DNA from: Gluconobacter sp. Gdi
Lineage (GTDB): Bacteria; Pseudomonadota; Alphaproteobacteria; Acetobacterales; Acetobacteraceae
DNA length: 64,000 nt
Reading direction: 5' to 3'
NCBI RefSeq assembly: GCF_014132155.1
Contig: NZ_BLJQ01000009.1
Location: forward strand, 1-64,000
The translations under genes were made by a program, and so were the position numbers. Positions 41,253 to 59,560 of the stretch are shown here, piece by piece (within the stretch, counting starts at the first letter, position 1; each line of letters starts with the position of its first letter). The notes beneath the pieces were generated by a model. The model was given only the letters and a program-made list of their open reading frames with translations. It was not told the origin of the DNA and made no database searches.

Positions 41253-42422
41253 GTGAAACGAACCACTGGTCGTTACGAACGCACTATCGCAGGTGGTGAG
41301 GCGGTACAGGCATTCGTACCAGCGGCCCTGCCACCGAATGACCCTGAAATTAAGATCGGCGTTCAACTCGCGGAGCGACTGCGCACGGCCGAGCACGCGC
41401 TGGCGCGGCTCGATCTCGCCAGTGAGATAGTCCCGTCTCTCGACTGGTTCATCTACGCTTTCGTGCGCAAAGAGGCGGTCATCTCATCCCAGATCGAGGG
41501 CACACAGGCGACACTTATCGATCTGCTGAACTTCGAAGCCGAGCATGAAGTAGAGCCAGACGCGGATGTCGAGGAGATCTGCAACCATCTGGATGCACTG
41601 ACCTACGCGCGCGAAGAGCTGGCGAAATCCGATGGCCTGCCGCTCTCGATGCGGTTGTTGAACGGCGCGCATCAGCGGCTGATGCACGGCGCGAGGGGCG
41701 CAACCAAGCAGCCTGGCGAGGTGCGGCGGAGCCAAAACTGGATCGGCGGCAGTCGTCCGGAAAATGCAATCTATGTTCCGCCCCCTGTGCAGGCGCTTCC
41801 CAGTCTGCTTGGCGATCTTGAGAAATACCTTCATACGACCGACAACCTGCCACCTTTGGTAAGAGTGGGGTTAGCCCATGTTCAGTTCGAGAGCATCTCC
41901 CCCTATCTCGACGGCAACGGTAGCCTGGGTCGCCTGCTCATTGCCTTGCTCCTCGAACATTGGGGGCTGCTGAAGGCACCGCTTCTCTATATCAGTCTCT
42001 TTTTCAAGCGTCATCGTGCAGAATATTTCAGCCGACTGACTGCCGTGCGCACCGACGGCGATTGGGAGGGCTGGACCGACTTCTTTCTCGATGCCGTGGC
42101 GACGATTGCCGACGAGGCCGTCGCATCGGCACGCGAGCTATTTGCCGTCGTCACCTCTGACCGAGCCCGCGTACTGGCCCAAGACACGACATCTGTCTCC
42201 GCTATGCGGCTGTTCGAGCTTTTGCCCAATCATCCGATCATCACCATCGCAACCGCCATGACGCTTATCGAGACGAGTAAGCCGACGGCCACTCGTGCCG
42301 TTGAGACGCTTATCGCTGCAGGCATTCTCGTCGAGACGACGGGCAAAAAACGAGATCGCAGCTTCGCCTATCAAACCTATGTCGACCGACTGCGGATCGG
42401 TACGGAACTGGAGCATAGATAA
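41253..42422 (+). CDS. Fic-fold protein with degenerate active site
   Basis: 389 residues from GTG 41253. Layout of the Fic_N plus Fic family: inhibitory-type motif SSQIEGT (S78 to E82-G83, the S/T-xxx-E-G motif of class II Fic), the flap region WIGGSRPENAIYVPPP, the Fic core loop, and a C-terminal winged helix (about 310-370, TATRAVETLIAAGILV). In active members the loop reads HPFxDGNGRxGR; here it is SPYLDGNGSLGR, so the catalytic His is Ser216 and the phosphate-anchoring Arg is Ser224. AMP transfer is therefore very unlikely. Its TAA overlaps the ATG of the RecQ-like gene (42420-42424), so they are translated together. Confidence 0.88.
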   Translation: MKRTTGRYERTIAGGEAVQAFVPAALPPNDPEIKIGVQLAERLRTAEHALARLDLASEIVPSLDWFIYAFVRKEAVISSQIEGTQATLIDLLNFEAEHEVEPDADVEEICNHLDALTYAREELAKSDGLPLSMRLLNGAHQRLMHGARGATKQPGEVRRSQNWIGGSRPENAIYVPPPVQALPSLLGDLEKYLHTTDNLPPLVRVGLAHVQFESISPYLDGNGSLGRLLIALLLEHWGLLKAPLLYISLFFKRHRAEYFSRLTAVRTDGDWEGWTDFFLDAVATIADEAVASARELFAVVTSDRARVLAQDTTSVSAMRLFELLPNHPIITIATAMTLIETSKPTATRAVETLIAAGILVETTGKKRDRSFAYQTYVDRLRIGTELEHR

Positions 42423-44521
42423 TGACCGATTATTCGACCGCACTTTCTCTCCTTAGACGGGCTCTTGGCGATAACACGGCATCATTTCGCGATGGGCAGT
42501 GGGAAGTCATAGACGCCTTGGTGAACAGACAGGAGCGCTTGCTGGTCGTACAGCGGACTGGTTGGGGAAAAAGTTCCGTCTATTTTATTGCCACCCGTAT
42601 TCTTCGAGATCGTGGTCGTGGACCAACTCTCATCGTTTCTCCACTTCACGCTTTGATGCGCAACCAGATTCAAGCCGCAAATCGTTTTGGCATTCGCGCC
42701 CTGACAATAAATTCTACGAACAGAAACGAATGGCCGGCACTTCAACAGATCGTGCGGGCCAATCAGGCTGATGCGCTTCTGATTTCTCCCGAACGTTTGG
42801 CCAATGACGATTTCGTAGAAAACATCTTGCTACCAATCGCTGAAACGATTGGCTTGCTCGTCGTCGATGAGGCCCACTGCATATCCGACTGGGGCCACGA
42901 TTTTCGGCCCGATTACCGGCGCCTCGTCAACGTCTTGCAGAGGATGCCAGAGAACGTCCCAATACTGGGTACGACAGCGACGGCCAACAATCGCGTCGTT
43001 GCGGATGTTCAAGCACAACTGGGCAACGTTGGAATCGAGCGCGGAGCACTCACACGGCAAACACTTGCGCTACAGACGTTACGCCTCCCCACGCAAGCAG
43101 CGCGTCTCGCGTGGTTGGTGGAGCATATCAATGAACTTCCGGGTACAGGTATCATTTACACGCTGACAAAGCGGGATGCCAACCAGGTTACTGATTGGCT
43201 CAATCAGCACGGCATTGCTGCCCGACCTTACTATAGCGGTGTGCTGAGCGATGGGTTTGAAGACTCTGACACGTATCGTGAGCACCTTGAAGATCAACTC
43301 CTGAGAAACGAGATCAAGGTATTGGTCGCGACGACCGCCCTTGGAATGGGATACGACAAGCCGGATCTCAGCTTCGTTGTTCACTATCAGGCACCCGGAT
43401 CGATCGTTGCCTATTATCAGCAAGTCGGCCGGGCCGGCCGTGGCATTGCTCACGCAGTCGGCGTTTTAATGTCAGGCGACGAAGATGATCAGATCCACGA
43501 ATTCTTTCGTAGCAATGCGTTCCCGCGCGAGCGATGGGTTCAATCGATCTTGAAAGCGCTTGAGGACAGCGATGGTCTGAGCACAGCTCAAATCGAGGAG
43601 ATAGTGAACCTGCGACACGGCCAGATCGAGCAGGTACTCAAGTTCCTTTCCGTCAATAGCCCTGCCCCTGTCATCAAGGACGGCTCGAAATGGCAGAGGA
43701 CCCCCGTCCCATTTCGTATGGATCATGAACGCATTCAGCGTCTAACCGAACAGCGCGAAATCGAGTGGGACGAAGTTCAAGCCTACATCGATGAACCGGG
43801 ATGCCTGATGGAGTTTCTGGCCAACGCCCTTGATGATGCGAACCCGCAGGCATGCGGCAACTGTGCCAACTGCTTGGGCAGGCCAGTCGTGGATCCGTCA
43901 TTCACTCGCAAAACGGCATTCGCGGCCGGCCGTTTCCTGCGCCATTCCGAGATCGTCTTGGAATGCAACAAGCAGGTCGCAAAGGATGCCTTCGCCGAAT
44001 ATGGGCTTAGAGGGAATCTTCCCTTGGAACTCCGCGCAGAACCAGGTCGGATTCTTTCCCGTTGGGGTGACGCTGGTTGGGGGCAAGTGGTCGCTGACGA
44101 CAAGCACAATGGTCGTTTCAGAGACGAACTCGTTGATGCTGTTGTGGAGATGCTGCGCGACCGCTGGCAACCAAATCCGTCACCGACATGGGTCACCTGC
44201 GTCCCTTCCAGAAACCATCCGACACTTGTACCTGACTTCGCGCACCGCCTTGCGAAGGCTCTTGGCCTCCCGTTCGTGCAGGCAATCGTCAAGGTGAAGG
44301 ACAATGAGCCCCAGAAGGGGCAACAGAACAGGTTCCACCAGTGCCGCAACCTCGATGGTGTTTTTGAAATCGTCGGGGCTGTGTCCAATGGCCCTGTGCT
44401 CCTCCTAGATGACGTCGTTGACTCAGCGTGGACAATGACAGTGGCCGCTGCGCTTCTCAGGCAAGCCGGCAGTGGCCCTGTTTGGCCAGTCGCCTTAACG
44501 ACTTCGAGCGTGGGAGGCTGA
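42422..44521 (+). CDS. RecQ-like helicase fused to a phosphoribosyltransferase domain
   Basis: 699 residues. Residues 1-330: superfamily 2 RecQ-like helicase with Walker A TGWGKSS (K50), DEAH box VVDEAHCISDWGHDFRPDYR (D149), and motif VI YYQQVGRAGRG. A RecQ zinc-binding set follows near 461-485 (Cys in EPGCLMEF, then ACGNCANC). Residues about 585-699 are a PRPP-type phosphoribosyltransferase: WVTCVPSRNHPTLVPDFAHRLAKALGLPF, then VLLLDDVVDSAWTMTVAAALLRQAG as the ribose-phosphate loop. Gene order fic-this gene-dprA, with a one-base gap to dprA. The fusion points to a nucleotide-linked DNA response, probably phage defence. Confidence 0.88.
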   Translation: MTDYSTALSLLRRALGDNTASFRDGQWEVIDALVNRQERLLVVQRTGWGKSSVYFIATRILRDRGRGPTLIVSPLHALMRNQIQAANRFGIRALTINSTNRNEWPALQQIVRANQADALLISPERLANDDFVENILLPIAETIGLLVVDEAHCISDWGHDFRPDYRRLVNVLQRMPENVPILGTTATANNRVVADVQAQLGNVGIERGALTRQTLALQTLRLPTQAARLAWLVEHINELPGTGIIYTLTKRDANQVTDWLNQHGIAARPYYSGVLSDGFEDSDTYREHLEDQLLRNEIKVLVATTALGMGYDKPDLSFVVHYQAPGSIVAYYQQVGRAGRGIAHAVGVLMSGDEDDQIHEFFRSNAFPRERWVQSILKALEDSDGLSTAQIEEIVNLRHGQIEQVLKFLSVNSPAPVIKDGSKWQRTPVPFRMDHERIQRLTEQREIEWDEVQAYIDEPGCLMEFLANALDDANPQACGNCANCLGRPVVDPSFTRKTAFAAGRFLRHSEIVLECNKQVAKDAFAEYGLRGNLPLELRAEPGRILSRWGDAGWGQVVADDKHNGRFRDELVDAVVEMLRDRWQPNPSPTWVTCVPSRNHPTLVPDFAHRLAKALGLPFVQAIVKVKDNEPQKGQQNRFHQCRNLDGVFEIVGAVSNGPVLLLDDVVDSAWTMTVAAALLRQAGSGPVWPVALTTSSVGG

Positions 44522-44522
44522 C

Positions 44523-45854
44523 ATGCATCTTACACCTCAAGCTCAGGCGGTGATGCTCCTAACCGTGTCTTTCGGAAAGTCCGAGTCACAGAATGGAAAA
44601 CCCTTCTCTAACAGCGAGTGGGCTAAATTTGCCATTTGGTTAAAGGATCATGGGCTGGAGCCTGCCGTCCTGTTGAGAGGCGATCTGGACTCTCTACTCG
44701 CCAGTTGGGTGGATCGTACAGTTTCAATAGCGCGTATTCGGACTCTCTTAGGAAGGGGGGCCGCCCTTGGACTTGCGCTCGAAAAATGGCAGCGGGCAGG
44801 TTTATGGGTTTTAACGAGATCTGACCAAGAATACCCGGAGCGGCTGAAGCGGCGGCTACGCTCAGAATCGCCCGCCGTCCTGTTCGGCTGCGGAAACAAG
44901 GCTCTTCTTAATACCGGCGGAATCGCCGTGGTAGGCTCGCGTGACGCCAACGAAGAGGATCTCGCCTACACCGAAAGACTTGGAGCCGAGGCAGCAGCAC
45001 AAGGATATTCACTTGTCTCTGGGGGTGCTCGCGGGGTCGATCAAAGCGCAATGATTGGAGCATTGGCGAGGCAAGGCACAGCTGTCGGTGTTCTTGCTGA
45101 CAGCCTGCTTCGGTCCGCAACGTCATCGAAGTATCGCAAGCATATTATGTCCGGCGATTTAGCGTTGATCAGCCCGTATAATCCCGAGGCAGGCTTCAAT
45201 GTTGGTCATGCAATGTCGCGCAATCGATATATTTACTGCTTATCCGACGCTGCTGTCGTCATTAGCAGCACGCGCGAAAAGGGAGGAACGTGGAACGGAG
45301 CGATCGAGGACATCCGCGCTGGATGGGTTCCGCTTTGGGTTAAGGCGAGTAACGATCGGGATTCCGGCAATCGAGAGCTTGTCCTGCGTGGAGCCAACTG
45401 GTTTCCAGAAGACATGACCTCGCTGTCGAAATTATTCGGGGAACCTCACTTCGCATCGTCTCAAACCTTAAGCAATGAACTTCCACTGCTTGGGCGGGAT
45501 GATGACCGAGAGGCCGGATCGGAAAATGAAAAAAAGACTGGAGCCAGTTCCATAACGGAGAGCCAACTACCACCAGTAAGCGCGACAGTCATTCCTAGCG
45601 TATCTGTTCCTGAGAGCAGCGCGGTGGTCAACGTAGACTTCTATACCCTTTTCCTGGCCCGGTTTCTGGAGCTTACGTCAGCCGGCCCCATGGCGGTCGA
45701 TGATATAGCCGCGCGCCTTGAACTTGAGAAGACGCAGGTAAACGCTTGGCTGAAGCGCGCGCAATGTGAAGAAAAGATCTCTAAACTAACGAGGCCTGTC
45801 AGGTATCAGATAAATCCTGAAGGAAAAAATCAGACAGCTTTATTTGAAAAATGA
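44523..45854 (+). CDS. DprA/Smf-like protein with C-terminal winged helix
   Basis: 443 residues, starting one base after the helicase gene stops. Residues about 130-310 are the DprA Rossmann fold: GIAVVGSRDANEEDLAYTERLGAEAA (G138-S139-R140), LVSGGARGVDQSAMIGALARQGTAVGVLAD (S166 to D173), ISPYNPEAGFNVGHAMSRNRYIYCLSDAAVVI, and EKGGTWNGAIEDI. The first 100 residues are an unassigned, helix-rich part. A variable linker (330-380) leads to a winged-helix end (MAVDDIAARLELEKTQVNAWLKRA). Unlike housekeeping DprA it lies in a defence operon, so a nucleotide- or ssDNA-sensing role is more likely than transformation. Confidence 0.85.
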   Translation: MHLTPQAQAVMLLTVSFGKSESQNGKPFSNSEWAKFAIWLKDHGLEPAVLLRGDLDSLLASWVDRTVSIARIRTLLGRGAALGLALEKWQRAGLWVLTRSDQEYPERLKRRLRSESPAVLFGCGNKALLNTGGIAVVGSRDANEEDLAYTERLGAEAAAQGYSLVSGGARGVDQSAMIGALARQGTAVGVLADSLLRSATSSKYRKHIMSGDLALISPYNPEAGFNVGHAMSRNRYIYCLSDAAVVISSTREKGGTWNGAIEDIRAGWVPLWVKASNDRDSGNRELVLRGANWFPEDMTSLSKLFGEPHFASSQTLSNELPLLGRDDDREAGSENEKKTGASSITESQLPPVSATVIPSVSVPESSAVVNVDFYTLFLARFLELTSAGPMAVDDIAARLELEKTQVNAWLKRAQCEEKISKLTRPVRYQINPEGKNQTALFEK

Positions 45855-45885: not shown

Positions 45886-46878
45886 TTGAGCCAGCCGCGT
45901 GTAAATGAAGCAGTAAACTCTGATTTAGATATGGTCCTAGCAGCGCTCCGCCGTGACTATTCGAAATTAGGACCAAGGATAAGGGAACTACAGCACGAGG
46001 TGACGTGCGAGTGCGCCGGTGTCACACTTCGTCTGCATTTTCCCGCTTTCCGACAAGGCAAGACTACCATTCATGAATTGGTGGAGTTGGTATGGCTTCA
46101 CCTGACCCCTTTTGCGCTCACGCGAAAAGAAATCGACGCAGTAAGGGAGCTTCAGTCGACTCTGCCGTTTGAAGATTTTCTAATCAAAACCACGCAGCTC
46201 AACGACACGGCGGCCAAGCTTTTCATTAAGGCTCATAAAGCGACAAATCGAAATGGCGAAGCTGGCGAATTGTTGCTCTACCTGCTAACCGAGTGGATAT
46301 TAGGCGCGCCGCAGTTCATCGCCAAGATGACCTTAAAAACTAATTCGCAAATGCCTGTACACGGAGCGGACGGGATCCATGTTCGCTACTGCCCGGAGAC
46401 TGCGCGGCTATTCCTCTATTGGGGCGAGTCTAAAATGTATGGTGATGTCGGTGCAGCTATTAACGCTGCCGCGACATCGATCGCAAAATCGTTAGGGCCA
46501 GGAGAACTGGACCACGAACTCCAGCTTGTTCAGCGAAATATCGATTTTACAGGACTAGGGGCTGACGGCAAAGCAGCGCTGCTACGCTACCTAGACCCGC
46601 ATGAGGAGGAATACAATGAACGTAAGGATGTCATCACCTGCCTAATCGGCTTCGATTTTGATGGCTTCCAGAAGGCCAACGCTGCTGGTGATCAGGCTGC
46701 TGAAGATACGTTTCGAGCACTGGCCAAAGAGCAGCTTGCAGCAATGGCTCCTAAGGTTTCAGCTGCGCTCAAGACGGCTGGACTGGATTCTCAGGACGTG
46801 GAGCTATTCTTTTTTCCACTCCCTGCCGTCCAGGAGTTTCGCGATCTTTTTCAGGCTCGAATTGGCTGGCTACCATGA
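45886..46878 (+). CDS. hamA: HamA, DUF1837 nuclease of a Hachiman system
   Basis: 330 residues, read from TTG 45886 with GGGG about 8 bases upstream; no better in-frame start is visible. DUF1837 features: GEAGELLLYLLTEWILGAPQFIAKM, then GADGIHVRY with Asp162, and LFLYWGESKMYGD with Glu181 and Lys183. Asp ... Glu-x-Lys is the PD-(D/E)xK nuclease signature. HamA pairs with the HamB helicase in Hachiman; the complex is known to sense DNA damage-like structures during phage infection and then degrade DNA. It follows dprA by 31 bp on the same strand and overlaps hamB by four bases (ATGA). Confidence 0.9.
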   Translation: MSQPRVNEAVNSDLDMVLAALRRDYSKLGPRIRELQHEVTCECAGVTLRLHFPAFRQGKTTIHELVELVWLHLTPFALTRKEIDAVRELQSTLPFEDFLIKTTQLNDTAAKLFIKAHKATNRNGEAGELLLYLLTEWILGAPQFIAKMTLKTNSQMPVHGADGIHVRYCPETARLFLYWGESKMYGDVGAAINAAATSIAKSLGPGELDHELQLVQRNIDFTGLGADGKAALLRYLDPHEEEYNERKDVITCLIGFDFDGFQKANAAGDQAAEDTFRALAKEQLAAMAPKVSAALKTAGLDSQDVELFFFPLPAVQEFRDLFQARIGWLP

Positions 46879-49409
46879 TGCAGGAACTGGCTGATAAGGT
46901 TTGGGGAAACCCCGGCTTTCATGATGCGGCGCATCGCATTGAGCTCGCGTGGCTAACCAAAGAAATCGGCGGCATTGACGATGGTCACGCCGACATTGCG
47001 GACGCCACGCGATTGATGCGCTCGGCGGCAATCTTGGCTTGCTCCGAGACGCGAGATCATCGACACGCGGCGTTCCGGGTGGCGACGTGTGCGTATGACT
47101 TGTTCGGAACCAGCCAAGTGCCTTTAGATCAAGCCCTACGTGTTGTGCTCACGCGTCTCGGCAACTTTCCTTCCATCGGCACTCGTGCAGACGTGGCATC
47201 CGCACGGACAAGTCTACCGCTCATGCTTGCGGCAGAAGAAATTGTATCGGCGGACGCTCATGAGGTTACGATCAACGGACAAACAGTGCTGCTGACAGAT
47301 TTCCAGCAGAAACTGTGGCTAAACCTTATCCAAAGTCGTCGCATCGCGTTGGCTGCACCTACATCCGCAGGAAAATCCTTTGTCTTGCAGGGCTATCTGT
47401 CGGCGCTCTTCGACAACGAGCAGCCAAAGTCAGTCGTCTACATCGTCCCAACTCGCGCCTTGATTGCCCAAGTGGCCGAAGATTTGAAGATCCAGTTTCA
47501 GGGAATGCACCAAGATGCCCCCGACATCGTGACGGTACCAGTCGATGCTGAAACGACCCTCGCCGAGCGCTCCATTTACGTGATGACTCAAGAGAGGGTA
47601 CAACTCGCCCTTGGAGCTCACCCAGACTTTAGCGCCAGCGTCATCATCGTCGATGAAGCGCATTCGATCGCGGAAGGGTCACGCGGCGTACTACTGCAAT
47701 GGGTCATCGACGATTTACTAATCCGCAACTCGGCATCACAAATTCTTTTTGCCAGCCCAGCGATCCGTAACCTAGATGTCTTTGGACGGCTGTTTGGCTT
47801 GGACGATGTGGTTGAATTTTCGTCTGTAGAGCCGACCGTTGCCCAAAATTTTTTGGTCATTACCGTCGAGTCCGCCACCAAGGGCAAGCTGGTGGTCCAA
47901 ACCGCTGGCGACGGATCAAGAACGCTGCGGCAAGTCGCAACGCTGCAGCTGGGGCGGACGGTGGCGAGCCGAACAGAGAAGCTCGTCCATATCCCGGCGG
48001 TGCTTGGACACGGGCATTCAAATATCATCTACGCGAATGGTGCGGCTGAAGCGGAGAGCATCGCGCTCCAACTCGCAGAGTTGATGTCCGATCGCGAGCC
48101 AACCGAAGCACTCCTTGCTTTATCCGACTTGGCGAAAGAAGCGGTACACGCTAACTACGGGTTGGTCGAGTGCGTCAAACACGGCGTAGCATTTCACTAC
48201 TCCAACATCCCGACCCAGCTCCGACGTGCAATTGAAGCGGCCGTATCGTCTGGCGAAATCGATTATCTCGTCTGCACAAGTACGCTGCTTCAAGGTGTCA
48301 ACCTTCCCGCCAAGAATATCTTTATGTTCGCCCCAGAAAAGGGGCGGACCAGAGCGCTGGAATCGACAGACTTCTGGAATCTTGCTGGTCGCGCCGGTAG
48401 ACTCAAACGGGAGTTTCAGGGCAACATCTTTCTCATCGACTATGATACTTGGAAGAAAAAACCGCTCGCCGGTCCAAAAAATTCGGTCGTGACGCCAGCA
48501 ATTGAAACCAGCCTCAACAAACATCATGACCAGTTAATGAATGTGATTGCTGGCGCGCCCACAGCAGGCCGCAGCGATGAGACTGATCTCGAGACAGTTT
48601 TCGTCCGCCTCTATACCGATTTCAAAGGTGGCGATCTAAATCAGACATTCGAGCGTGCTGGCCTCGCAGTAGGTGATGTCCAGTCCAGTCTGTTAGCAGC
48701 TGCACTTGGATCGGCCAGCGAAAAACTGACCCTGCCCGCGGCGGTTCTGCGCCGAACTCCGAACATCTCTGCCCATAAACAGCAGTGCCTTTATGAGCGG
48801 CTGAGCTCGAAGATAGCGCTAGGTCCCGATGTCGCGCGAACCCTTATTCCGTCGCATCCGAGAGAGAGCGAAGCGTTTCAGTCCTATGCGAATATATTGG
48901 AGTTGTGCCACGAGATCATCCTCGGTATCGACACATCGAAAAACCGCCATCGGTTCCATGCCCTGATTGCGCGGCGCTGGATGCTTGGCCTTCCGCTTCC
49001 CCAGATCATTGACGAGCAAATTTCGCGAAATGCGTCGAAACCTGTTCGAACGACGATCAGAAGCACGTTAGATTTAATTGAAGGTGATATCCGTTTTCAA
49101 GCGGTGCGTCTATTTGGTTGCTACACTGCACTTCTTGTCTACGCGCTCGACAGCGCAGGTTTGGTGGACATGGTCTCCAGTATCCCGTCCTTGCCACTCT
49201 ACTTGGAGATCGGCGCATCCGACAAAACGATGATTAGCTTCATCTCTCTAGGGTTATCACGTGTCACAGCGATGAAGCTGAACGAAATGTCTGCCCGTAA
49301 AGATCTCGATACTGCCGCCGCGCTACAGTGGTTGCGAACTCGTCCGCTTGAAGCGCTGGGACTTTCGCCCCTTTTGCTTGCTGAGGTGCAGGCGATTACG
49401 CTTAATTAA
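46875..49409 (+). CDS. hamB: HamB, DEAD/DEAH helicase of a Hachiman system
   Basis: 844 residues. Superfamily 2 helicase: Q-motif-like LTDFQQKLWLNL, Walker A APTSAGKS with Lys167, VYIVPTRALIAQVAEDL (motif Ia), DEAH at 260-263 in VIIVDEAHSIAEGSRG, and in the second RecA-like domain CTSTLLQGVNLPAKNIFMF and FWNLAGRAGRLKREFQGNIFLID (motif VI arginines). The first 130 residues and the last 280 are all-helical, family-specific parts. It moves along DNA and holds HamA inactive until it meets phage-linked DNA. Start ATG overlaps the hamA stop. Confidence 0.92.
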   Translation: MMQELADKVWGNPGFHDAAHRIELAWLTKEIGGIDDGHADIADATRLMRSAAILACSETRDHRHAAFRVATCAYDLFGTSQVPLDQALRVVLTRLGNFPSIGTRADVASARTSLPLMLAAEEIVSADAHEVTINGQTVLLTDFQQKLWLNLIQSRRIALAAPTSAGKSFVLQGYLSALFDNEQPKSVVYIVPTRALIAQVAEDLKIQFQGMHQDAPDIVTVPVDAETTLAERSIYVMTQERVQLALGAHPDFSASVIIVDEAHSIAEGSRGVLLQWVIDDLLIRNSASQILFASPAIRNLDVFGRLFGLDDVVEFSSVEPTVAQNFLVITVESATKGKLVVQTAGDGSRTLRQVATLQLGRTVASRTEKLVHIPAVLGHGHSNIIYANGAAEAESIALQLAELMSDREPTEALLALSDLAKEAVHANYGLVECVKHGVAFHYSNIPTQLRRAIEAAVSSGEIDYLVCTSTLLQGVNLPAKNIFMFAPEKGRTRALESTDFWNLAGRAGRLKREFQGNIFLIDYDTWKKKPLAGPKNSVVTPAIETSLNKHHDQLMNVIAGAPTAGRSDETDLETVFVRLYTDFKGGDLNQTFERAGLAVGDVQSSLLAAALGSASEKLTLPAAVLRRTPNISAHKQQCLYERLSSKIALGPDVARTLIPSHPRESEAFQSYANILELCHEIILGIDTSKNRHRFHALIARRWMLGLPLPQIIDEQISRNASKPVRTTIRSTLDLIEGDIRFQAVRLFGCYTALLVYALDSAGLVDMVSSIPSLPLYLEIGASDKTMISFISLGLSRVTAMKLNEMSARKDLDTAAALQWLRTRPLEALGLSPLLLAEVQAITLN

Positions 49410-49768: not shown

Positions 49769-49772
49769 TCAT
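49660..49772 (-). pseudogene. Transposase fragment, possibly IS481-like
   Basis: Read on the minus strand from ATG at 49770-49772, MTTVAVRRAIQDSQVSLRTLAKRYRL resembles the N-terminal helix-turn-helix of IS481-type transposases. After about 27 residues the similarity is lost, with no DDE motifs following, so it is a short remnant. Its ATG overlaps the trbI stop codon. Short length makes the family call tentative. Confidence 0.4.
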
Positions 49773-50971
49773 GGGTGGATTTCCTTCTCTGTCCAAGGCT
49801 TTAGAACCAGAGCGCGGTTCAAAATAAGCGTAAACGGCAGCCCCGGCCGGTCGGTCAGCGTGGGCTGGACGTTGAGGCTGCGATCGATCAGCCGGTTGCC
49901 GACCATGGAGAAGCCATTGCTGACCCCGCTGCGGATCGCCTGCATCAGGTTATTCTCATTCCATGACGTGCCCGCTTCCGAACCCACGCTGAGCAAGGTC
50001 GTGACGAGGGCTGCGCGGAACAGTTGCCCCCAGTGATTGTTCACCTCGTCGGACAGACCGGACTGGCCGATGGCGTCGCCGCCGGGCAGTTTTTCCAACA
50101 CGAGACTCTCCCCGTTCGGGTAGATCAGCCGGGTCCAGATGATCTGGGTGCGCTGCTGTCCGAAGGAGACGCTGCTGTTATAGGCCCCGAACAGGGTGCT
50201 GCCCTGCGGGACCAGCAGATACCGCCCGGTCGGGCTGTCATAGACGTTCTGGGTGACATGACCGACAATCTGACCCGGCAGGTCGGAGCTGATTTTCGTG
50301 TTGAGCGCCCCGGCGATGACGGTCCCTGCCTGAAGGATATAAGGAGATGCAGGCGGCGTAATCCGGTCGGGACTCACCGTCGCACGATCTGGCTGACCCG
50401 CCAGAAAGGTACGATTACCAACCTGCTGATCGGTTCCTGCGGATGATGCCTGCACTCCGGGAGCTGCCTGTGCCGGGACCGGGACCGCCTGTGCGCTCTG
50501 ACCCTCCCGCGCCTCGACCTGCGCAAACAGCCGACTGGTCCGCGCTGCTTCGATCTCCTGGTCACCGCGACGATCCCCCATGCCGGGAACCGGTCCCGCA
50601 CGTCCCTGCCGCTGCGCATTAAGGATCGGCCCGCCCAGATCGCCGGGCAGAGGCTGCCCCAGCTTCGGTACATTGGTATAGTCGCTGGGCAGAGCCGACA
50701 GCCCATCGGCCGAGGCGCGCGCGTCGGTATCCTGTGCCGCCTGAACCGGCCCTTTTGGCGTGTTGCCTTGCAGCGCGTAGCCCAGCGCAAGACCGATGGC
50801 GAGCATTCCGGCGGCACCCAATGTCCAGATGACGGGGCGCGACAGCTTTACGACCGGCGGACGCTGCGCGCGCAGCCGCAGATCGGGTGGCGCTGCTGAT
50901 CCCGGCCCCGCTGCGCTTCCGTTGCCAGTAGCGCCTCCGTCCTCATCCGGGCGTTCTTCCGCGCTGCTCAT
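49769..50971 (-). CDS. trbI: TrbI, conjugal transfer channel protein (VirB10-like)
   Basis: 400 residues. A cytoplasmic Pro/Ala-rich N-terminus, one membrane helix (about 50-70, VIWTLGAAGMLAIGLALGYAL), a proline-rich periplasmic stretch, and the conserved VirB10/TrbI barrel domain: ILQAGTVIAGALNTKISSDLPGQIVGHVTQNVYDSPTGRYLLVPQGSTLFGAY, IWTRLIYPNGESLVLEKLPGGDAIGQSG and LTLILNR-like end. It bridges both membranes in the mating channel. Last gene of the trb row; it overlaps trbG by four bases and ends exactly where the transposase fragment begins, so the final residues may have been altered. Confidence 0.93.
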   Translation of the reverse strand: MSSAEERPDEDGGATGNGSAAGPGSAAPPDLRLRAQRPPVVKLSRPVIWTLGAAGMLAIGLALGYALQGNTPKGPVQAAQDTDARASADGLSALPSDYTNVPKLGQPLPGDLGGPILNAQRQGRAGPVPGMGDRRGDQEIEAARTSRLFAQVEAREGQSAQAVPVPAQAAPGVQASSAGTDQQVGNRTFLAGQPDRATVSPDRITPPASPYILQAGTVIAGALNTKISSDLPGQIVGHVTQNVYDSPTGRYLLVPQGSTLFGAYNSSVSFGQQRTQIIWTRLIYPNGESLVLEKLPGGDAIGQSGLSDEVNNHWGQLFRAALVTTLLSVGSEAGTSWNENNLMQAIRSGVSNGFSMVGNRLIDRSLNVQPTLTDRPGLPFTLILNRALVLKPWTEKEIHP

Positions 50972-51969
50972 GACTTTCTGCCATCCGTGCGCACGATGCG
51001 CACGCGCTGCTCGGAATGTTTGTCACCCAGACGCAATTCAGCGGCGGCAAACAGGCGGTCGACGATCATCCAGTCCTGCCGCACCCGGTAATTGACCAGT
51101 TCCGGCCCGCCATCGGCCCCCAGCACGAACAGGGGCGGCAGTTCCCCCTGCCCGATCCCCGACGGGAAGGCGATATAGACCTTGTGGCCGTCATCGAAGG
51201 CCCGGCCGGGCAGCCAGGGCGGTTTCCCGCCTTTCACTGGCTGGATGGCATAGCGGAAATTCAGCGAGTTCAGATCCAGCCCCGCATCCACCGGCGCTTC
51301 CTCGTCGGAGGCATCATCCCGCCGATGCAGCGCGATCAGATCGTCCTCGGGATAGTCCCACGACACCGACGCCATATAGGTCGCGGGCGTCGACCTCAGT
51401 TCGGCGAGGTAGGTCCGCCGGTCGGTGTTGACGATCAGGTTGGTGGTCAGATCCGGGCGTGTAGGCTTGACCAAGATATGCACGCGCTTCGTGGTTCCCG
51501 CTCCGCTCGACGTATCACCGACAATCCAGCGCACGGTATCACCCACCGCGACCGGCCCGGTGCCGACCAGCTTCTCGCCGGGCTGGAGCATGATGTCGGT
51601 GATCTCGCCTGGCGCGGCATAGACCTGATAGAGCGCTCCCGGACTGTAGGGATAAACCTGCACCGCGTTCACATAACCGGCCCGTGTCGGCTGGATGCGG
51701 GCGGCAAGATTGGCCTGGGTCACGCGCACGGCGGGATCGGCCGCTTCAGGCGCGAAGTGGACGCGCCGTAACGGTGGAAGCGGCTTGAGCTGGCCCGGCA
51801 GGGGAAGGATTTTCGGGACTTCCACGACCTGCACAGGCTTCGGTGGATCGGGCTGGCGTGTCGCCTGGGCCGCATCATCGTAGCGGATGACGGGCGGATG
51901 ATACTGCCCCGCGCAGGCGGACAGGGTGAGCAGCGCCAGTAGAACGGCGCGCATGACCATGCGGATCAT
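50968..51969 (-). CDS. trbG: TrbG, VirB9-like mating channel protein
   Basis: 333 residues with a lipoprotein-like signal (LALLTLSAC). Typical VirB9/TrbG parts: ANLAARIQPTRAGYVNAVQVYPYSPGALYQVYAAPGEITDIMLQPGEKL, GDTSSGAGTTKRVHILVKPTRPDLTTNLIVNTDRRTYLAELRS, and a C-terminal beta domain with PFVLGADGGPELVNYRVRQ-like content. It forms the outer-membrane part of the channel with TrbI. Overlaps trbI and trbF by four bases at each end. Confidence 0.93.
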   Translation of the reverse strand: MIRMVMRAVLLALLTLSACAGQYHPPVIRYDDAAQATRQPDPPKPVQVVEVPKILPLPGQLKPLPPLRRVHFAPEAADPAVRVTQANLAARIQPTRAGYVNAVQVYPYSPGALYQVYAAPGEITDIMLQPGEKLVGTGPVAVGDTVRWIVGDTSSGAGTTKRVHILVKPTRPDLTTNLIVNTDRRTYLAELRSTPATYMASVSWDYPEDDLIALHRRDDASDEEAPVDAGLDLNSLNFRYAIQPVKGGKPPWLPGRAFDDGHKVYIAFPSGIGQGELPPLFVLGADGGPELVNYRVRQDWMIVDRLFAAAELRLGDKHSEQRVRIVRTDGRKS

Positions 51970-52658
51970 TGTCCGAGTTCCTTCGACCAGTTGATGGCGG
52001 AGACGTAAATGCCAAGCGGGTTTTTCCGCAGATGATCGGCGTCACGCGGCGTGCGCAGAACAACCGACACGATGGCGGTCCAGCGTTCGGTGCCGGTGAA
52101 CGCTCCGTCGCGGTAATGGTGCTCGGTCCAGGCGACACGGAAACTTCCGGGGGAAGCCCGGATGACCGACGACACATCGACGTCGACCTGCTCGCGGCCA
52201 ATCTGCGAGAATGGATCATTCAGGCGCGCATAATCGTTCAGCGCCTGCGCCCCCGAAATAGTGGCAAAGTCGTAGGCCCGCAGCCAGTTATGGCGCACGA
52301 CCACCGCATCTGATGAAAGACCACGGACATCGCCGATAAACTGCGCCAGATACCAGGCAATCTGCGGATCGGTCGGTATGTAGCCCGCCGTCGCGGGAGC
52401 CACGACCTGCGCCTGGCCAAGCCGATCGACCTGCACCACCCATGGCACGACGGTGCCACGCACCGACTGCCAGACCAGACCGGCACCAAGGCCGGCGGAC
52501 AGAAACAGTGACCCGAACGCCATCAGACGCCAGTTGCGGGCCTGCACACGGGCGGAGCCGATGCGCTCGTCCCAGATCTGCGCTGCTTTCTGGTATGGGG
52601 TTACGGGCTCGGGCGTGATCCCGTAGCGGCTGGTGGAGCGACGGAACATCGTCCTCAT
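51966..52658 (-). CDS. trbF: TrbF, VirB8-like inner-membrane protein
   Basis: 230 residues. YQKAAQIWDERIGSARVQARNWRLMAFGSLFLSAGLGAGLVW covers the conserved TrbF N-terminus and single membrane helix (about 47-68), followed by the periplasmic NTF2-like domain with VPWVVQVDRLGQAQVVAPA, IAWYLAQFIGDVRGLSSDAVVVRHNWLRAYDF and a last NPLGIYVSAINWSKELG. It links the ATPases to the channel. Overlaps trbG and the trbL frame by four bases. Confidence 0.93.
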   Translation of the reverse strand: MRTMFRRSTSRYGITPEPVTPYQKAAQIWDERIGSARVQARNWRLMAFGSLFLSAGLGAGLVWQSVRGTVVPWVVQVDRLGQAQVVAPATAGYIPTDPQIAWYLAQFIGDVRGLSSDAVVVRHNWLRAYDFATISGAQALNDYARLNDPFSQIGREQVDVDVSSVIRASPGSFRVAWTEHHYRDGAFTGTERWTAIVSVVLRTPRDADHLRKNPLGIYVSAINWSKELGQ

Positions 52659-54065
52659 TCCTTTTCCGAGAGATCAATGCTGGAACTTCCGCCGCCGCCA
52701 TCGGCGGAACGGATGACATGCGCGGCTTCGGCGGCATGGGTGGCTGCGTTACGGCGCTTCATGCTCCGCGCCCAGCGGGGTGGCTGACCGTCGGGACCGC
52801 TGCTTTCTAGACCACCATCCGCTGGGCCGCCGCCGTTACCGGACGGACCACCAGACTGCCCGCCGTTCGCATCGGACGATGTCCCACCTGTGAAGCGTCC
52901 GCCCGTCGCGGTAAAAGCGCCTCGCGCGCCCTCGCCGTAGCTCTGCTTCATGGCGGTCGCCGCAGACGACATTTTGCTCTTCACGGCATTCGCGGCAGCA
53001 CTGCCCGGCGCCCGGGCGACACCGCCCAGCCCGGCTGCCATGCGGGCACCGGCACTTTCGCCAGCGGCATTCATGGCACCCATCGAATAAGCCGTGTTCG
53101 CCGCACCTGCGATCGCGGCCCCGCCCCGCGCGGCGGCTGCCGTCGCGCCCACGGCCGCAGCCCCACCAGAGGCAACCGCTCCAACGCCAGCCACGGCCGT
53201 TGCCCCCATCGCGCCAACCGCCATGCCGGTGCCGACAGCGGCGCCAGCGCCAAGCTGTGGCGCGCCGGAGATCAGACCATTGGCGATGCTGCCGCCCAAA
53301 ATGGACAGACCGACGATAGCGAGGGACGCCAGTACCACTGACGTTGCCTGTCCGACGGTGGGCACAGCATCGCCATAAGAGGTCGTAAACTGCCGGAATA
53401 ATACAGACGCGATGCCGGAGATCACCGCCAGCACCATCACCTTCACGCCCGATGACACGACATTGCCCAGCACCTTCTCCGCCAGGAAGGCCGTCCGGTT
53501 GAACAGGGCAAACGGGATCAGCACGAAACCGGCGAGGCTGGTCAGCTTGAACTCGATCAGCGCCACGAAAAGCTGCACGGCAAGGATGAAGAACGCGGCG
53601 AGCACGATCAGCCAGGACAGGCAGAGCACGAAGATCTGGATAAAGTTCTTGAAGAAGGCCACCGGACCCAAAAGGTTGTGGACAGAGTCCAGCAGTGGCT
53701 GGGCCGCATCAAACCCGGTCGCGGCCAGTCGACCGGGGCGGAGGAAATCCGACAATGTCAGATTGCCGCCCCCAGCCTTCAGGCCCATGGCGGCGAAGCT
53801 GTCAAACACCACCTTCGCCAGATGGTCGAAATTGTTGATCAGGAATGCGAAGAACCCGATATACAGTGGTCTTCTTCACCAGACGCTGGATGATGTCCTC
53901 ATCCGCTGCCCACGCCCAGAACAGCCCGGCCAGTGCGATGTCGAGCACGGACAACGACCCCGCCAGCGAAACAACGTTTCCTTTCAGCAGACCGAAGCCG
54001 CTGTCGATCGTGGTCGTGAAGGTGTTCAGGAAAGTGTCGATAACGCCGACATCATTGGTGGCCAT
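52655..54065 (-). pseudogene. trbL: trbL with a single-base frameshift
   Basis: The N-terminal part (54065 down to about 53868) reads MATNDVGVIDTFLNTFTTTIDSGFGLL and LFWAWAADEDIIQRLVKKT, then drifts to a stop near 53802. In the next frame the normal sequence continues at once (YIGFFAFLINNFDHLAKVVF), down to 52655. One extra base, most simply T at 53867 on the plus strand, restores the TrbL reading. The rest is normal TrbL: five or so membrane helices, then a Gly/Ala-rich tail. TrbL is the VirB6-like polytopic channel protein needed for mating. The lesion should abolish function unless it is a sequencing error or a programmed shift. Confidence 0.85.
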
Positions 54066-54070
54066 GACCG

Positions 54071-54808
54071 TCAGTTCCCGCCGCTGCCGAACATAGACAC
54101 CGTGCCAGGCACATAGGCGTCGTGCAGCGAGAAATGCTGATACTGCGCATCGCTTTCCGCTTCCGCCGCAGCATCACGTGCCTGTTGCAGAGCCGTGGCG
54201 CGACCGTTGGCGGCCAGTTCCGCCTGAATGTCAGATAGCTGACGGGATTGCAGGGCCAGAAGCTGGTTTCCGGCCTGCGCCGCCTGCAACGCCCCGGTTG
54301 ACGTCTGGCTGGCCGAGACCAGTTGCGTCATGGCGCTGCTGTCGCTCGGGATGTTTCCGACCACGCGGGCCTGCAATTTCAGGGCATCCTCAAACCCGCC
54401 AACGGAATTCTGCCAGCGTGTCTGTGCCTGACCGAACAGGGCGCTGTCGGACATGCCCGAGGACACGGACGTGTACGCCTGCTGATACTGCTGCTCAACG
54501 GACTGGACGCTGTAGGCGATGTTCTGCGCCTGTGCGAGCAATGCCGTGGTCTGGGAAACCGTTGATTGCAACGTCGACAATGTCGAAAGCGGCAGGCTCG
54601 CCAGATTACGTCCCTGATTGACCAGCATCTGGGCCTGATTGGCGAGAGAGGTGATCTGGTTGTCGATCTGCTGGAGTGTGCGGGCCGCGATCAGCACATT
54701 CTGGACGTGGTTCGCACCATCATAGACCGCCCATTGCGCGTGGGCAGGTGGAGAAGATGAAACCGTAAAAGTAATGACCATAACGGCAGGAATCAGACGA
54801 TATCTCAC
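54071..54808 (-). CDS. trbJ: TrbJ, VirB5-like secreted transfer protein
   Basis: 245 residues, start GTG 54808 in a GTGA overlap with trbE. A signal peptide (LIPAVMVITFTVSSSPPAHAQ) precedes QWAVYDGANHVQNVLIAARTLQQIDNQITSLANQAQMLVNQGRNL, the TrbJ hallmark. The protein is almost all coiled-coil and helical. TrbJ sits at the pilus tip or adhesion step of mating. A trbK-like entry-exclusion gene, often found next to trbJ, is absent: only five bases separate trbJ from trbL. Confidence 0.92.
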   Translation of the reverse strand: MRYRLIPAVMVITFTVSSSPPAHAQWAVYDGANHVQNVLIAARTLQQIDNQITSLANQAQMLVNQGRNLASLPLSTLSTLQSTVSQTTALLAQAQNIAYSVQSVEQQYQQAYTSVSSGMSDSALFGQAQTRWQNSVGGFEDALKLQARVVGNIPSDSSAMTQLVSASQTSTGALQAAQAGNQLLALQSRQLSDIQAELAANGRATALQQARDAAAEAESDAQYQHFSLHDAYVPGTVSMFGSGGN

Positions 54809-57237
54809 GGCACGCCCCCTTCCCGCAGAAGGTCCGCCGCCCACATGACACCACGTGCTTCGAACCACGCAGGCAGGAAACCATCCCGCCCGTGCTTGGT
54901 CAGCACGCTATCGATCAGTCGATGATCGTCCTTGCCGGACGCGGCACACAACGCCAGCGCCACCGGACCGAGACCCAGTTCGAACAACCGGTTTCCCCGC
55001 TGGGTCTGGCAATAATACTCCCGCTTGGACGCCGCGCGGGCGATGATGGCGATCTGCCGGTCGTTCAGACCGAAATCCCGATAGAGCGCCATGATCTGTG
55101 GCTCGATGGCGCGCTCGTTGGGCAGGAATATCCGCGTGGGGCAGCTTTCCACCACCGCTGGCGCGATCGGCGAGTTGGCAATGTCTGACAGGCTTTGCGT
55201 GGCGAAAATCACTGACGCATTCTTCTTGCGCAGCGTTTTCAGCCATTCCCGGAGTTGTCCGGCGAAATCACCGTCATCGAGCACCAGCCAGCCCTCATCG
55301 ATGACCAGCAGCGTCGGGCGGCCATCCAGACGGCCTTCAATGCGGTGGAACAGGTAGGCGAGACCCGAAGACGCGGCGCCTGAGCCGATCAGGCCCTCGG
55401 TTTCGAAAACGACGACGTCGGCGTCACCGAGCCGTTCGATATCGACATCGAGCAGGCGACCATAGGGGCCACCCAGACAGTAAGGCGCCAATGCCTGCTT
55501 CAGCGCGTTGGACTGGAGCAATGCCACCAGACCGGACAGGGTCCGTTCACCAACGGGCGAAGATGCAAGCGAATTCAGGGCGGACCAGAGGTGAGACTTC
55601 ACCTCGGGGGTGAGCGGCACCCTTTCGCCCATCAGAATCTGACCCAGCCATTCCATGGCCCATTTCCGTTCGTCCGGATCATCGATCGACGCCAGCGGCT
55701 GAAGGGCGACGGCGGCGGTTTCTATGTCGCCGTCCGACAACCCGCCCCCGAGATCGTGCCAGTCGCCACCCATCGCCAACGTCGCCGCGCGCATGGAACC
55801 GCCAAAATCGAAGGCGAAAACCTGTGATCCCGCGTAACGACGGAATTGAAGCGCCATAAGGGCCAGCAACACCGACTTCCCCGCCCCCGTTGGCCCGGCG
55901 ATCAGGGTATGACCAACATCCCCGACATGCAGGGAAAACCGGAAGGGTGTCGCCCCCGCCGTCCTGCCGTAGAACAGCGGCGGAGCCCTGAAATGCCCGT
56001 CCTGCTCCGCCCCCGCCCAGACGGCGGAGAGTGGAATCATATGCGCCAGATTCAGGGTCGAAACCGGGGGCTGGCGGACATTGGCGTAGACATGGCCGGG
56101 CAAAGATCCCAACCATGCTTCCACGGCATTCAAGCTTTCCGCCATGCAGGTGAAATCGCGACCCTGAATGATCTTTTCCACAAGCCGCAGCTTCTCGGCC
56201 GCGATGCTGGCGCTGCCATCCCAGACCGTGACAGTCGCGGTGATGTACGCCTGCCCGACATCGTCGGCGCCAAGGGATTGCAGGGCCAGATCGGCGTCGG
56301 TAGCCTTATTGGCGGCATCGTTATCCACGAGAACCGACGCCTCGTTGGTCATCACCTCCCGAACAATCGCTGCAATACTCTTGCGCTTTGCGAACCATTG
56401 GCGACGGATTTTTGTTAGAACCTTCGTGGCATCGGTCTTATCGAGCAGGATGGTACGGGTGGACCAGCGGTAGGGCATAGCCAGCCGGTTCAGGTCATCC
56501 AGAATTCCGGGGAAAGTCCGGCTGGGGAAACCCGTGATCGTCAGCGTCTTGAGGAAAGCATCACCAAGTTTCGGCTCCAGACCGCCCGCCAGCGGCTGGT
56601 CCACCAGCAGCGCATCGAGGTGCATCGGGATTTCCGGCACCCTGACGCGCTGGTTCCGGGTGGAAATGGTCGAATGGAGATAGGTCAGCGTCTCGCCGTC
56701 ATCGAGCCAAACTGCCTCGGGCATGAAGACGTCCAGCAGGGCCAGCATCCGGTCCGTGTGATCCACGAACGCATGAAGCATTCCATGCGGATCAGGCCCC
56801 TCGCGCTCCCTGCCCTCATACAGAAAACGCTCGGCCCGGCCTGATGATTCTGCTGGCGGTAGCCAGACCAGGGTGACGAAATACCGGCTCTCGAAATGCG
56901 CGCCCTCATCCTCGAACTGTTCGCGCCGTTCGAGATCGACCATCTGGCTGGCCGCATCAGGAAAGTCGCTCTCGGGATAGAGCGTGGCCGGCACGCGCTG
57001 GGCCTCCACGAACACCGCCCAGCCGGAACCGAGCCGGCGCAGGGCGTTGTTCAGGCGTCCCGTGACACCGACAAGTTCGGCCGGTGTGGCGCTGTCCAGA
57101 TCTGGGCCACGTATCTTTGCCGTGCGCTGGAAGGAACCATCCTTGTTCAGGACAACGCCTTTCTCAACCAGGGCCGCCCATGGGAGAAAATCTGACAGGA
57201 GGGCAGCACGATTACGATATTCGCCAAGGGACATCAT
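54805..57237 (-). CDS. trbE: TrbE, VirB4-like mating ATPase
   Basis: 810 residues. The N-terminal CagE/TrbE/VirB4 domain begins MMSLGEYRNRAALLSDFLPWAALVEKGVVLNKDGSFQRTAKIRGPD. The ATPase domain has Walker A GPTGAGKSVLL (about residue 447), Walker B VLVIDEGWLVL (residues 636-646), and KKNASVIFATQSLSDI after it. It powers pilus assembly at the inner membrane. 12 bp separate it from trbD; it overlaps trbJ. Full length and intact. Confidence 0.95.
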   Translation of the reverse strand: MMSLGEYRNRAALLSDFLPWAALVEKGVVLNKDGSFQRTAKIRGPDLDSATPAELVGVTGRLNNALRRLGSGWAVFVEAQRVPATLYPESDFPDAASQMVDLERREQFEDEGAHFESRYFVTLVWLPPAESSGRAERFLYEGREREGPDPHGMLHAFVDHTDRMLALLDVFMPEAVWLDDGETLTYLHSTISTRNQRVRVPEIPMHLDALLVDQPLAGGLEPKLGDAFLKTLTITGFPSRTFPGILDDLNRLAMPYRWSTRTILLDKTDATKVLTKIRRQWFAKRKSIAAIVREVMTNEASVLVDNDAANKATDADLALQSLGADDVGQAYITATVTVWDGSASIAAEKLRLVEKIIQGRDFTCMAESLNAVEAWLGSLPGHVYANVRQPPVSTLNLAHMIPLSAVWAGAEQDGHFRAPPLFYGRTAGATPFRFSLHVGDVGHTLIAGPTGAGKSVLLALMALQFRRYAGSQVFAFDFGGSMRAATLAMGGDWHDLGGGLSDGDIETAAVALQPLASIDDPDERKWAMEWLGQILMGERVPLTPEVKSHLWSALNSLASSPVGERTLSGLVALLQSNALKQALAPYCLGGPYGRLLDVDIERLGDADVVVFETEGLIGSGAASSGLAYLFHRIEGRLDGRPTLLVIDEGWLVLDDGDFAGQLREWLKTLRKKNASVIFATQSLSDIANSPIAPAVVESCPTRIFLPNERAIEPQIMALYRDFGLNDRQIAIIARAASKREYYCQTQRGNRLFELGLGPVALALCAASGKDDHRLIDSVLTKHGRDGFLPAWFEARGVMWAADLLREGGVP

Positions 57238-57249
57238 CGCCCTACCCTC

Positions 57250-57528
57250 CTATGCCCGCAGCCAGGCGGGGTAGCGGAGATGCCGCCGTCCGACCTCGAC
57301 GAACAGCGGATCGCGTTTGGCACCCCAAACCGCGAGGCTATGCCCCACGATCCAGAATACCGCCCCGACCAGCCAGAGCCGCAGACCCAGCGAGATCGCG
57401 GCGCCCAGCGTGCCATTGGCGATCGCCAGGGTACGAGGAGCGCCGCCCAGCAGGATGGGATCGGTCAGCGAGCGATGCACCGGGACATGAAAGCCCGGCA
57501 CCGCGTCATCGTCATATCCGGCGCCCAT
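57250..57528 (-). CDS. trbD: TrbD, VirB3-like membrane protein
   Basis: 92 residues from ATG 57528 (overlapping the trbC stop, TGATG). VPGFHVPVHRSLTDPILLGGAPRTLAIANGTLGAAISLGLRLWLVGAVFW shows the TrbD/VirB3 pattern of a conserved HRSLT-P-ILLGG start and two membrane helices. The C-terminal HSLAVWGAKRDPLFVEVGRRHL is also conserved. It works beside TrbE at the inner membrane. Confidence 0.92.
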   Translation of the reverse strand: MGAGYDDDAVPGFHVPVHRSLTDPILLGGAPRTLAIANGTLGAAISLGLRLWLVGAVFWIVGHSLAVWGAKRDPLFVEVGRRHLRYPAWLRA

Positions 57529-57857
57529 CAGATCAGCGCTCCACCGCTGAAGCTGAAGAACGACAGGAAGAACGAGCTGGCCGCAAAAGCGATGGACAGG
57601 CCGAAGACGATCTGGATCAGGCGGCGGAAGCCGCCGGATGTTTCCCCAAACGCCAGCGTCAGGCCGGTCACGGTGATGATGATCACCGACACGATACGCG
57701 CTACCGGTCCCTGCACGGATTCCAGAATCTGGTTGAGCGGTTCCTCCCACGGCATGTCCGATCCGGACGCCAAGGCCGAGGAGCACCATGCGATGGACAG
57801 CAGCACGGCGGAAAAGACAGGCGCGTGCCGACGCACGCGGAACAGCGTGATGTTCAT
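57528..57857 (-). CDS. trbC: TrbC, VirB2-like pilin
   Basis: 109 residues from ATG 57857. A signal peptide (about residues 1-31, SAVLLSIAWCSSALASGSD) is followed by MPWEEPLNQILESVQGPVARIVSVIIITVTGLTLAFGETSGGFRRLIQIVFGLSIAFAASSF, the two-helix TrbC pilin. Propilin would be cleaved and, in related systems, cyclised. It overlaps trbB by four bases and trbD by one. Confidence 0.92.
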   Translation of the reverse strand: MNITLFRVRRHAPVFSAVLLSIAWCSSALASGSDMPWEEPLNQILESVQGPVARIVSVIIITVTGLTLAFGETSGGFRRLIQIVFGLSIAFAASSFFLSFFSFSGGALI

Positions 57858-58831
57858 TGGAAATCTCCATCGGTATCGATTGAATGAATGCGATAGGCGC
57901 CTGTGGCGGGGTCGAGCCCGTCCACGGTGGCGAGTTCGGACAACCGGCGCTGTGTGCCTCGCCCCGACAGGACAGCGATCACGTCGATCGTCTCGGCGAT
58001 CAGCGCGCGGGGCACGGTGACGACGATTTCCTGGATCAACTGCTCCATGCGATGCAGCGCACCGATGGCGGTGCCGGCATGCAGCGTGCCAATCCCACCG
58101 GGATGGCCCGTGCCCCACGCCTTGAGCAGATCCAGTGCTTCGGGACCGCGCACCTCGCCGATGGGAATACGGTCAGGTCGCAGACGCAGGGCCGAGCGCA
58201 CCAGTTCGGATAGGGTCACGATGCCGTCCCTTGTGCGGAGCGACACGAGATTGGGGGCCGCGCATTGCAGTTCGCGCGTGTCCTCGATCAGCACGACACG
58301 GTCGGAAGTTTTTGCAACCTCGGCCAGAAGGGCATTGACCAGCGTGGTTTTGCCGGTGGATGTACCACCCGCGACCAGGATGTTTTTCCTGTTCGAGACT
58401 GCCTCACGCAGGAAACTGGCCTGGGCATCAGTCATGATCCCGGCCGCGACATAATCATCGAGAGTGAACACGGCGACGGCGGGTTTGCGGATCGCGAAAC
58501 TCGGGGCTGTCACCACGGGTGGCAACAGTCCCTCGAACCGTTCCCCGGTCGGCAGCTCGGCCGAGACGCGTGGGGCCGCGTCATGCACCTCCGCCCCGAC
58601 ATGATGCGCGACCAGACGCACGATGCGCTCGGCATCGGCGGGCGTGATGGTTTCACCCGTGTCAGACAGCCCTTCGGACAGCCGGTCGATCCACAGCCGC
58701 CCGTCGGGATTGAGCATGACCTCGACGACGGCCGGATCGGCAAGGTGCGCTGCGATCGCCGGTCCCATCGCCGTGCGCAGCATTGAGATGCCGCGTGCCT
58801 GACTGTCCGAATTATGATGCGAAACCACCAT
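57854..58831 (-). CDS. trbB: TrbB, VirB11-like ATPase
   Basis: 325 residues. Domain 1: [38 protein letters not shown]. ATPase domain: Walker [15 protein letters not shown], Asp box [12 protein letters not shown], and [39 protein letters not shown]. It forms a hexameric motor on the inner face of the membrane. First of the trb genes, following copG in the usual order, but with a 200-bp gap and an orphan gene between them. An inner ATG at 58783 is another possible start. Confidence 0.95.
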
Positions 58832-59030
58832 CTGCCCCCCGCTCGAACGGGACCGGAACAGATGGTCCCCGCATGGGGATAATTAAAAAAGGCCGATTTC
58901 AGCTCGTTTCAACAGCTATTGCGAACCGTGCGGCAATAGCGAAGAAACGGCGGCAATCGGCAGAATTAAAAATTCATTAAAGCAAATTTTTAGAAGGCCT
59001 AGATATTATCACAAAACTCATCATAGTATT

Positions 59031-59480: not shown

Positions 59481-59560
59481 TTTATTACCTTTCTGATGGT
59501 CGAATACGAATACATATTCTTCTACAATATATCCTAGAAAAATATTGAATATTTTCCATC

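Follow-up and report, generated by a model that had tools for sequence, protein, structure and literature searches.

A probable PsyrTA abortive-infection module behind a degenerate SoFic-type gene in Gluconobacter

Does a compact three-gene cassette in Gluconobacter sp. Gdi represent a new defence system? The cassette lies in the first 64,000 nucleotides of contig NZ_BLJQ01000009.1 (assembly GCF_014132155.1), a stretch that was analysed whole and is called the window below. The original prediction, made from the sequence alone, read it as a candidate defence module consisting of a Fic protein without a working active site, a RecQ-like helicase ending in a phosphoribosyltransferase (PRTase), and a DprA-like protein. 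The three open reading frames (ORFs), the TAATG that joins the first two and the one-base gap between the second (ending at 44521) and the third (starting at 44523) are all present. We consider it probable that the locus is an intact PsyrTA abortive-infection module, placed beside a Hachiman system and a conjugation cluster and behind a recently silenced SoFic-type gene. What was observed here is the protein identities, the gene order, the intact PsyrT motifs and the fic history; papers on relatives describe PRTase-dependent genotoxicity that is restrained by a DprA-like partner.

The second and third genes match PsyrTA

The second gene matches the PADLOC PsyrT profile over residues 5-697 of its 699 (1001.9 bits, E 3.5e-302), and the third matches PsyrA (509.4 bits, E 1.8e-153). 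Pfam assigns DEAD and Helicase_C to the former, with Pribosyltran and RecQ_Zn_bind scoring under their curated cut-offs, and DNA_processg_A to the latter. The predicted Fic, RecQ/PRTase and DprA domains are thus borne out, but not the winged helix attributed to the third protein, as the Pfam scan listed none at its C-terminus. PsyrT carries TGWGKS from residue 46, DEAH from 149 and DDVVDSAWT from 663, so that the helicase and PRTase catalytic motifs of PsyrTA are both present, and it has the invariant PRTase columns of a 38-row alignment. The residues that the literature reports as tested in RqlH (K49, D148 and D663) correspond to K50, D149 and D663 of the window protein, matched by position and without alignment to RqlH.

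The gene pair shares with PsyrTA and RqlH-RqlI a RecQ-like helicase with a C-terminal PRTase as toxin, followed by a DprA-like antitoxin, and the profile match is near full length. As PsyrTA requires, psyrA lies directly 3' of psyrT; the window differs in the SoFic-like gene that extends into the start of psyrT. ShosTA, which we take to have a PRTase toxin without a RecQ helicase, fits less well, given the additional helicase of the window PsyrT and the 94.5 bits that the third gene scores there against 509.4 for PsyrA. The competence proteins ComFA, ComFC and DprA serve DNA uptake, whereas the window pair is a toxin-antitoxin, its PRTase fused to a RecQ-type helicase. By these matches the second and third genes are the already described toxin-antitoxin/defence pair PsyrTA, and therefore no new system: the cassette does resemble a defence module, as predicted, but its core was known. 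With SoFic, HamA (432 bits) and HamB (1025.2 bits) as the other best PADLOC matches, the candidate module resolves into PsyrTA, a SoFic-like gene ahead of it and Hachiman behind.

PsyrT and PsyrA form the constant pair

A PsyrT search of genome contigs returned 91 loci, of which the best 80 were analysed. PsyrA lies directly 3' of psyrT in 78 of these, and the remaining two (L020 and L060) reach a contig edge. Only one locus (1/80), that of Rhizobium mongolense USDA 1844 (L002), has a complete Fic gene next to psyrT, and HamA occurs nearby in three (L002, L028 and L051). Five further PsyrT loci from a search of the class (L118-L122; 6 of 385 genomes carry PsyrT, counting the window's own) all have PsyrA, with no Fic match upstream in flanks of ~1.5 kb (~0.3 kb in L122). 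Conversely, neither PsyrT nor PsyrA was found at any of 35 loci of Fic relatives (0/35), in stretches mostly with ~1.5 kb flanks. Two other Fic sequences were seen at PsyrT loci, neither adjoining: one with an intact motif ~4 kb upstream of psyrTA in an Aestuariivita metagenome-assembled genome (L073, 2896-4029), and a 28% identical Fic-like stretch downstream of psyrT in L063.

PsyrT and PsyrA thus stay together, whereas Fic and Hachiman come and go beside them. The co-occurrence that the original prediction had proposed as its check holds for the RecQ-PRTase and DprA genes but fails for Fic. Fic as a constant first gene was rejected on the 80 PsyrT loci, the 35 Fic-relative loci and a 78-locus remnant test described below; it is whole in one of the 80 and survives as scraps in two others. 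The literature searched, in the portions available, gave no report of Fic as a PsyrTA component. PsyrT was found in 14 of 72,556 plasmid records at E 1e-50 (best identity 62.1%) and in none of the viral contigs, where Fic occurs at 6 loci; two host families were sampled, and in each the genome at the centre of the sample was the only carrier (1/299 and 1/346).

The Fic protein lacks both catalytic residues

The first gene matches PADLOC SoFic (354 bits, E 2.8e-106) and Pfam Fic_N and Fic, and scores 147 bits against the NCBIfam SoFic equivalog, below its 550-bit cut-off. It shares with SoFic both domains and an intact inhibitory motif, SSQIEG at residues 78-83, which fits the class II pattern (S/T)xxxE(G/N). 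It differs in its active site. The motif reads SPYLDGNGSLGR, with Ser replacing both the catalytic His (S216) and the Arg eight residues later (S224), and does not match the canonical HxFx(D/E)GNGRxxR. Among the 38 other rows of a 40-row comparison (two came from the window itself), the His is present in 37 and the Arg in all 38. The sole exception for the His, L109, is a distant relative (37% identical) with Gln for His and Val for the acidic residue.

E. coli Sofic is reported to be non-toxic as H194A and much less toxic as R202A (PMC12249575), and two Campylobacter Fic proteins lose their toxicity when the catalytic His is changed (PMC5651007). In an alignment with the adenylyltransferase chain of PDB 9vjc, which has Ala 194 and Arg 202 and is presumably this Sofic mutant, S216 and S224 fall opposite these two positions, and Phe259 of the window protein falls opposite the important Sofic residue Tyr237. 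The predicted loss of a working active site is thus upheld; AMP transfer has very probably been lost, and we describe the protein as a SoFic-like pseudoenzyme without counting it as a SoFic.

In the window psyrT follows fic directly, in place of a small AS1-type gene; because psyrT overlaps the fic stop codon, there is no small gene directly 3'. An AS1-type antitoxin gene downstream of SoFic is reported for E. coli H397 but not shown to define the family. Upstream of fic no small ORF common to the window and the Rhizobium locus was apparent, in a comparison that did not use AS1 as a query.

A Rhizobium copy suggests a recent change

The closest copy to the window Fic is that of R. mongolense, whose motif, HPYLDGNGRLGR, has both active-site residues. 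The two cassettes are 87.8% identical over 5,225 aligned bases of DNA, and their proteins 94% (Fic), 94% (PsyrT) and 85% (PsyrA); the GTG start of the window fic aligns with an ATG in Rhizobium. The window Fic is dead, as proposed, but the idea that a dead Fic is part of the module fares less well, since only this copy was seen to have the dead site. The ratio of nonsynonymous to synonymous substitution rates (dN/dS) between the two is 0.078 for fic, 0.071 for psyrT and 0.149 for psyrA. The fic value indicates purifying selection, and therefore normal constraint during most of the divergence, so the loss looks recent.

The two Fic proteins differ at 22 positions when the start codon is read as Val. 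Polarising 21 of these with 22 relatives placed 7 changes on the window side and 8 on the Rhizobium side and left 6 ambiguous; the window-side changes E170, S216, S224 and I247 fall at positions conserved in at least 18 of the 22 relatives. There is no general enrichment at conserved columns (the 105 near-invariant columns take 3 of the 22 differences, against 5.9 expected), nor significantly within the 12-residue motif (2 of 22; 0.14). What is unusual is only that named Fic residues were hit, a post hoc observation.

Could the motif change be a sequencing or assembly error, leaving Fic active? The copy comes from a single draft genome of 178 contigs, and no second genome with it was seen in a sample of one genome per species. 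Two separate codons are altered, eight residues apart, in an intact frame, and further window-side changes (E170 and I247) hit sites at which the Fic core is conserved. We regard such an error as very improbable.

A possible history of the fic gene

Traces of fic were sought within 1.5 kb upstream of psyrT (less at contig ends) at 78 loci by comparison with the Rhizobium gene, with z-scores from 60 mononucleotide shuffles per locus. Besides L002, two loci retain remnants, L003 in Mesorhizobium sp. STM 4661 (z 16.3) and L028 in Sinorhizobium sp. 8-89 (z 14.9), and the next-best locus scores 5.0. What is left of fic in each is its 3' end, running into psyrT, and neither genome has another Fic at E 1e-20. 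The one-base stop-start overlap between fic and psyrT is common to L002, L003, L028 and the window. When a 31-row tree of PsyrT is rooted at its midpoint, these four group together (support 97/94), with the window and L002 innermost (100/99). The simplest history suggested by these sequences would be a single gain of Fic followed by three independent losses, two by deletion and one by loss of the active site in the window.

These results bear on the proposal that the Fic pseudoenzyme regulates PsyrTA in a three-gene system, whether as a ligand-binding switch, as the original prediction had it, or as an ATP-binding switch or an extra antitoxin. The shared stop-start overlap would suit it, as would the open frame, the retained inhibitory motif and the otherwise 94-95% identity to the Rhizobium Fic; neutralisation of one Fic by another is described in Campylobacter (PMC5651007). 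Yet the window genome has no second Fic match at E 1e-5 that could be neutralised, nearly all PsyrTA loci do without Fic, two of the four cassettes that once had it have deleted it, and the 35 Fic-relative loci show no PsyrT or PsyrA in the stretches compared, mostly with ~1.5 kb flanks. The absence of Fic from most loci, with the active-site residues kept in Rhizobium, argues against a built-in ligand switch, and we judge a three-gene system improbable.

Hachiman, conjugation genes and other settings

The neighbouring features of the window are given with the cassette in Table 1. The hamA-hamB pair (45886-49409) has the make-up of Hachiman, a system separate from PsyrTA: two Rhizobium leguminosarum plasmids carry a HamAB that is 88% identical in DNA, and PsyrTA is absent from the ~9 kb on each side of it. 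On one of these, from Vaf10 (L126), an annotated IS481 transposase gene at 9670-10620 splits the hamA region, and in strain Vaf-108 (L125) hamA is whole. In L002, HamA stops after 128 residues at an apparent insertion sequence, and apparent inverted copies of one such element (1-760 and 5980-6470) bracket the cassette, both as read from the sequence. L026 has a HamB-like helicase stretch, 25% identical and ~4.5 kb upstream of psyrT, that was not counted as Hachiman.

Table 1. Features of the window and their coordinates
Feature	Position	Strand	Description
fic, SoFic-like class II	41253..42422	+	389 aa, GTG start; frame open, active site very probably lost (S216, S224)
Degenerate Fic motif SPYLDGNGSLGR	41898..41933	+	within fic
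TAATG stop-start overlap fic/psyrT	42420..42424	+	
psyrT, RecQ-like helicase with C-terminal phosphoribosyltransferase, PsyrTA toxin	42422..44521	+	699 aa
PsyrT C-terminal region, modelled	43892..44518	+	predicted phosphoribosyltransferase fold, ComFC nearest
psyrA, DprA-like antitoxin	44523..45854	+	443 aa
hamA, Hachiman	45886..46878	+	separate neighbouring system
hamB, Hachiman helicase	46875..49409	+	separate neighbouring system
Conjugation gene cluster	49769..61989	-	Pfam TrbI, CagX, VirB8, TrbL, CagE_TrbE_VirB, T2SSE, T4SS-DNA_transf

The end of hamB adjoins the trbI end of the conjugation cluster, which matches 134 plasmid records, 100 of them typed conjugative. A homologous trb cluster in L028 (9-4304) likewise has defence genes past its trbI end, with different cargo: an Eco57I-type methylase, one gene, psyrTA, a MerR/ResIII-helicase gene and a different HamAB (54-55% identical). 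This therefore looks like a recurrent cargo site. The conjugation genes adjoining in both the window and L028, together with the toxin-antitoxin make-up of the family, raise the prospect that the window PsyrTA serves only to retain the mobile element, as an addiction module, and has no part in phage defence. Hachiman adjoins it, and a related pair of DprA and PRTase protects against phage (PMC9122126), both of which weigh the other way; a role in addiction only seems unlikely to us, and the two roles are mutually compatible.

Elsewhere psyrTA is nested in other operons. In 10 of the 80 loci (L023, L024, L025, L031, L036, L042, L049, L050, L077 and L079) it sits between hsdS-like and hsdR-like genes of a single conserved operon, in the order xre-like, PIN-like, hsdM, hsdS, psyrT, psyrA, hsdR. 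A Pfam scan of 4 of the proteins confirmed HsdS in all of them, the other labels being read from sequence; L042 has a shortened hsdR match, and L049 hardly differs from L050. In two Halomonas loci (L058 and L059, 4281-10112) psyrT follows the BREX gene brxC by ~24 bases (Pfam on L058 only). The start of psyrT overlaps a DUF4391 gene (L014, L016) or a DUF4411 gene (L020) by 4 bases; in L026, 37 bases separate psyrT from a DUF4411-like gene upstream, and an HsdR-like gene lies downstream.

A speculative extension, to which we give little credence, is that PsyrTA is a second-line module placed behind, and often co-translated with, varying first-line defence genes (SoFic in the window; type I restriction-modification hsdS, BREX brxC, DUF4391 and DUF4411 elsewhere), firing once these defences are blocked or bound. 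The window Fic pseudoenzyme could then be a sensor or decoy for PsyrTA and not a toxin.

How the locus may work, and what it offers

So, how might the probable arrangement of an intact PsyrTA behind a silenced SoFic-type gene operate? The activity of the window PsyrTA, its trigger, its PRTase product and the reason for the Fic silencing are what we infer. PsyrT would be the effector, a RecQ-like helicase with a ComFC-like PRTase that damages the cell's DNA when free, and the DprA-like PsyrA would restrain it. This restraint may be disturbed by single-stranded DNA or by the processing of phage DNA, leading to abortive infection. The Fic gene would have been gained once, translated just ahead of psyrT, and then repeatedly discarded, by deletion in two relatives and, in the window, by replacement of the catalytic His and Arg. 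The cost of the toxin may account for its silencing, and the open frame was perhaps retained for psyrT translation.

Several points weigh against this interpretation. Expression of an E. coli PsyrTA gave no protection and a growth defect in one study (PMC12409345). The window cassette is known from sequence alone, its Fic motif comes from a draft assembly, and the Fic history rests on four cassettes, the only ones known in the group. The R. mongolense Fic, likely active to judge from its motif, shares two departures with the window protein: Tyr instead of the canonical Phe in the motif, and Phe259 opposite Tyr237 of Sofic. The open frame of the window fic and its low dN/dS leave room for a non-catalytic role.

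The apparent cassette of a dead Fic, a RecQ-PRTase and DprA resolves as PsyrTA with a silenced SoFic-type gene. The Rhizobium and window copies, with and without the Fic active-site residues ahead of the same PsyrTA, form a natural near-isogenic pair that lets one ask whether a toxin placed ahead of another toxin module is costly. The nesting of PsyrTA within other defence operons, as between hsdS and hsdR, is a testable lead to what PsyrTA watches.
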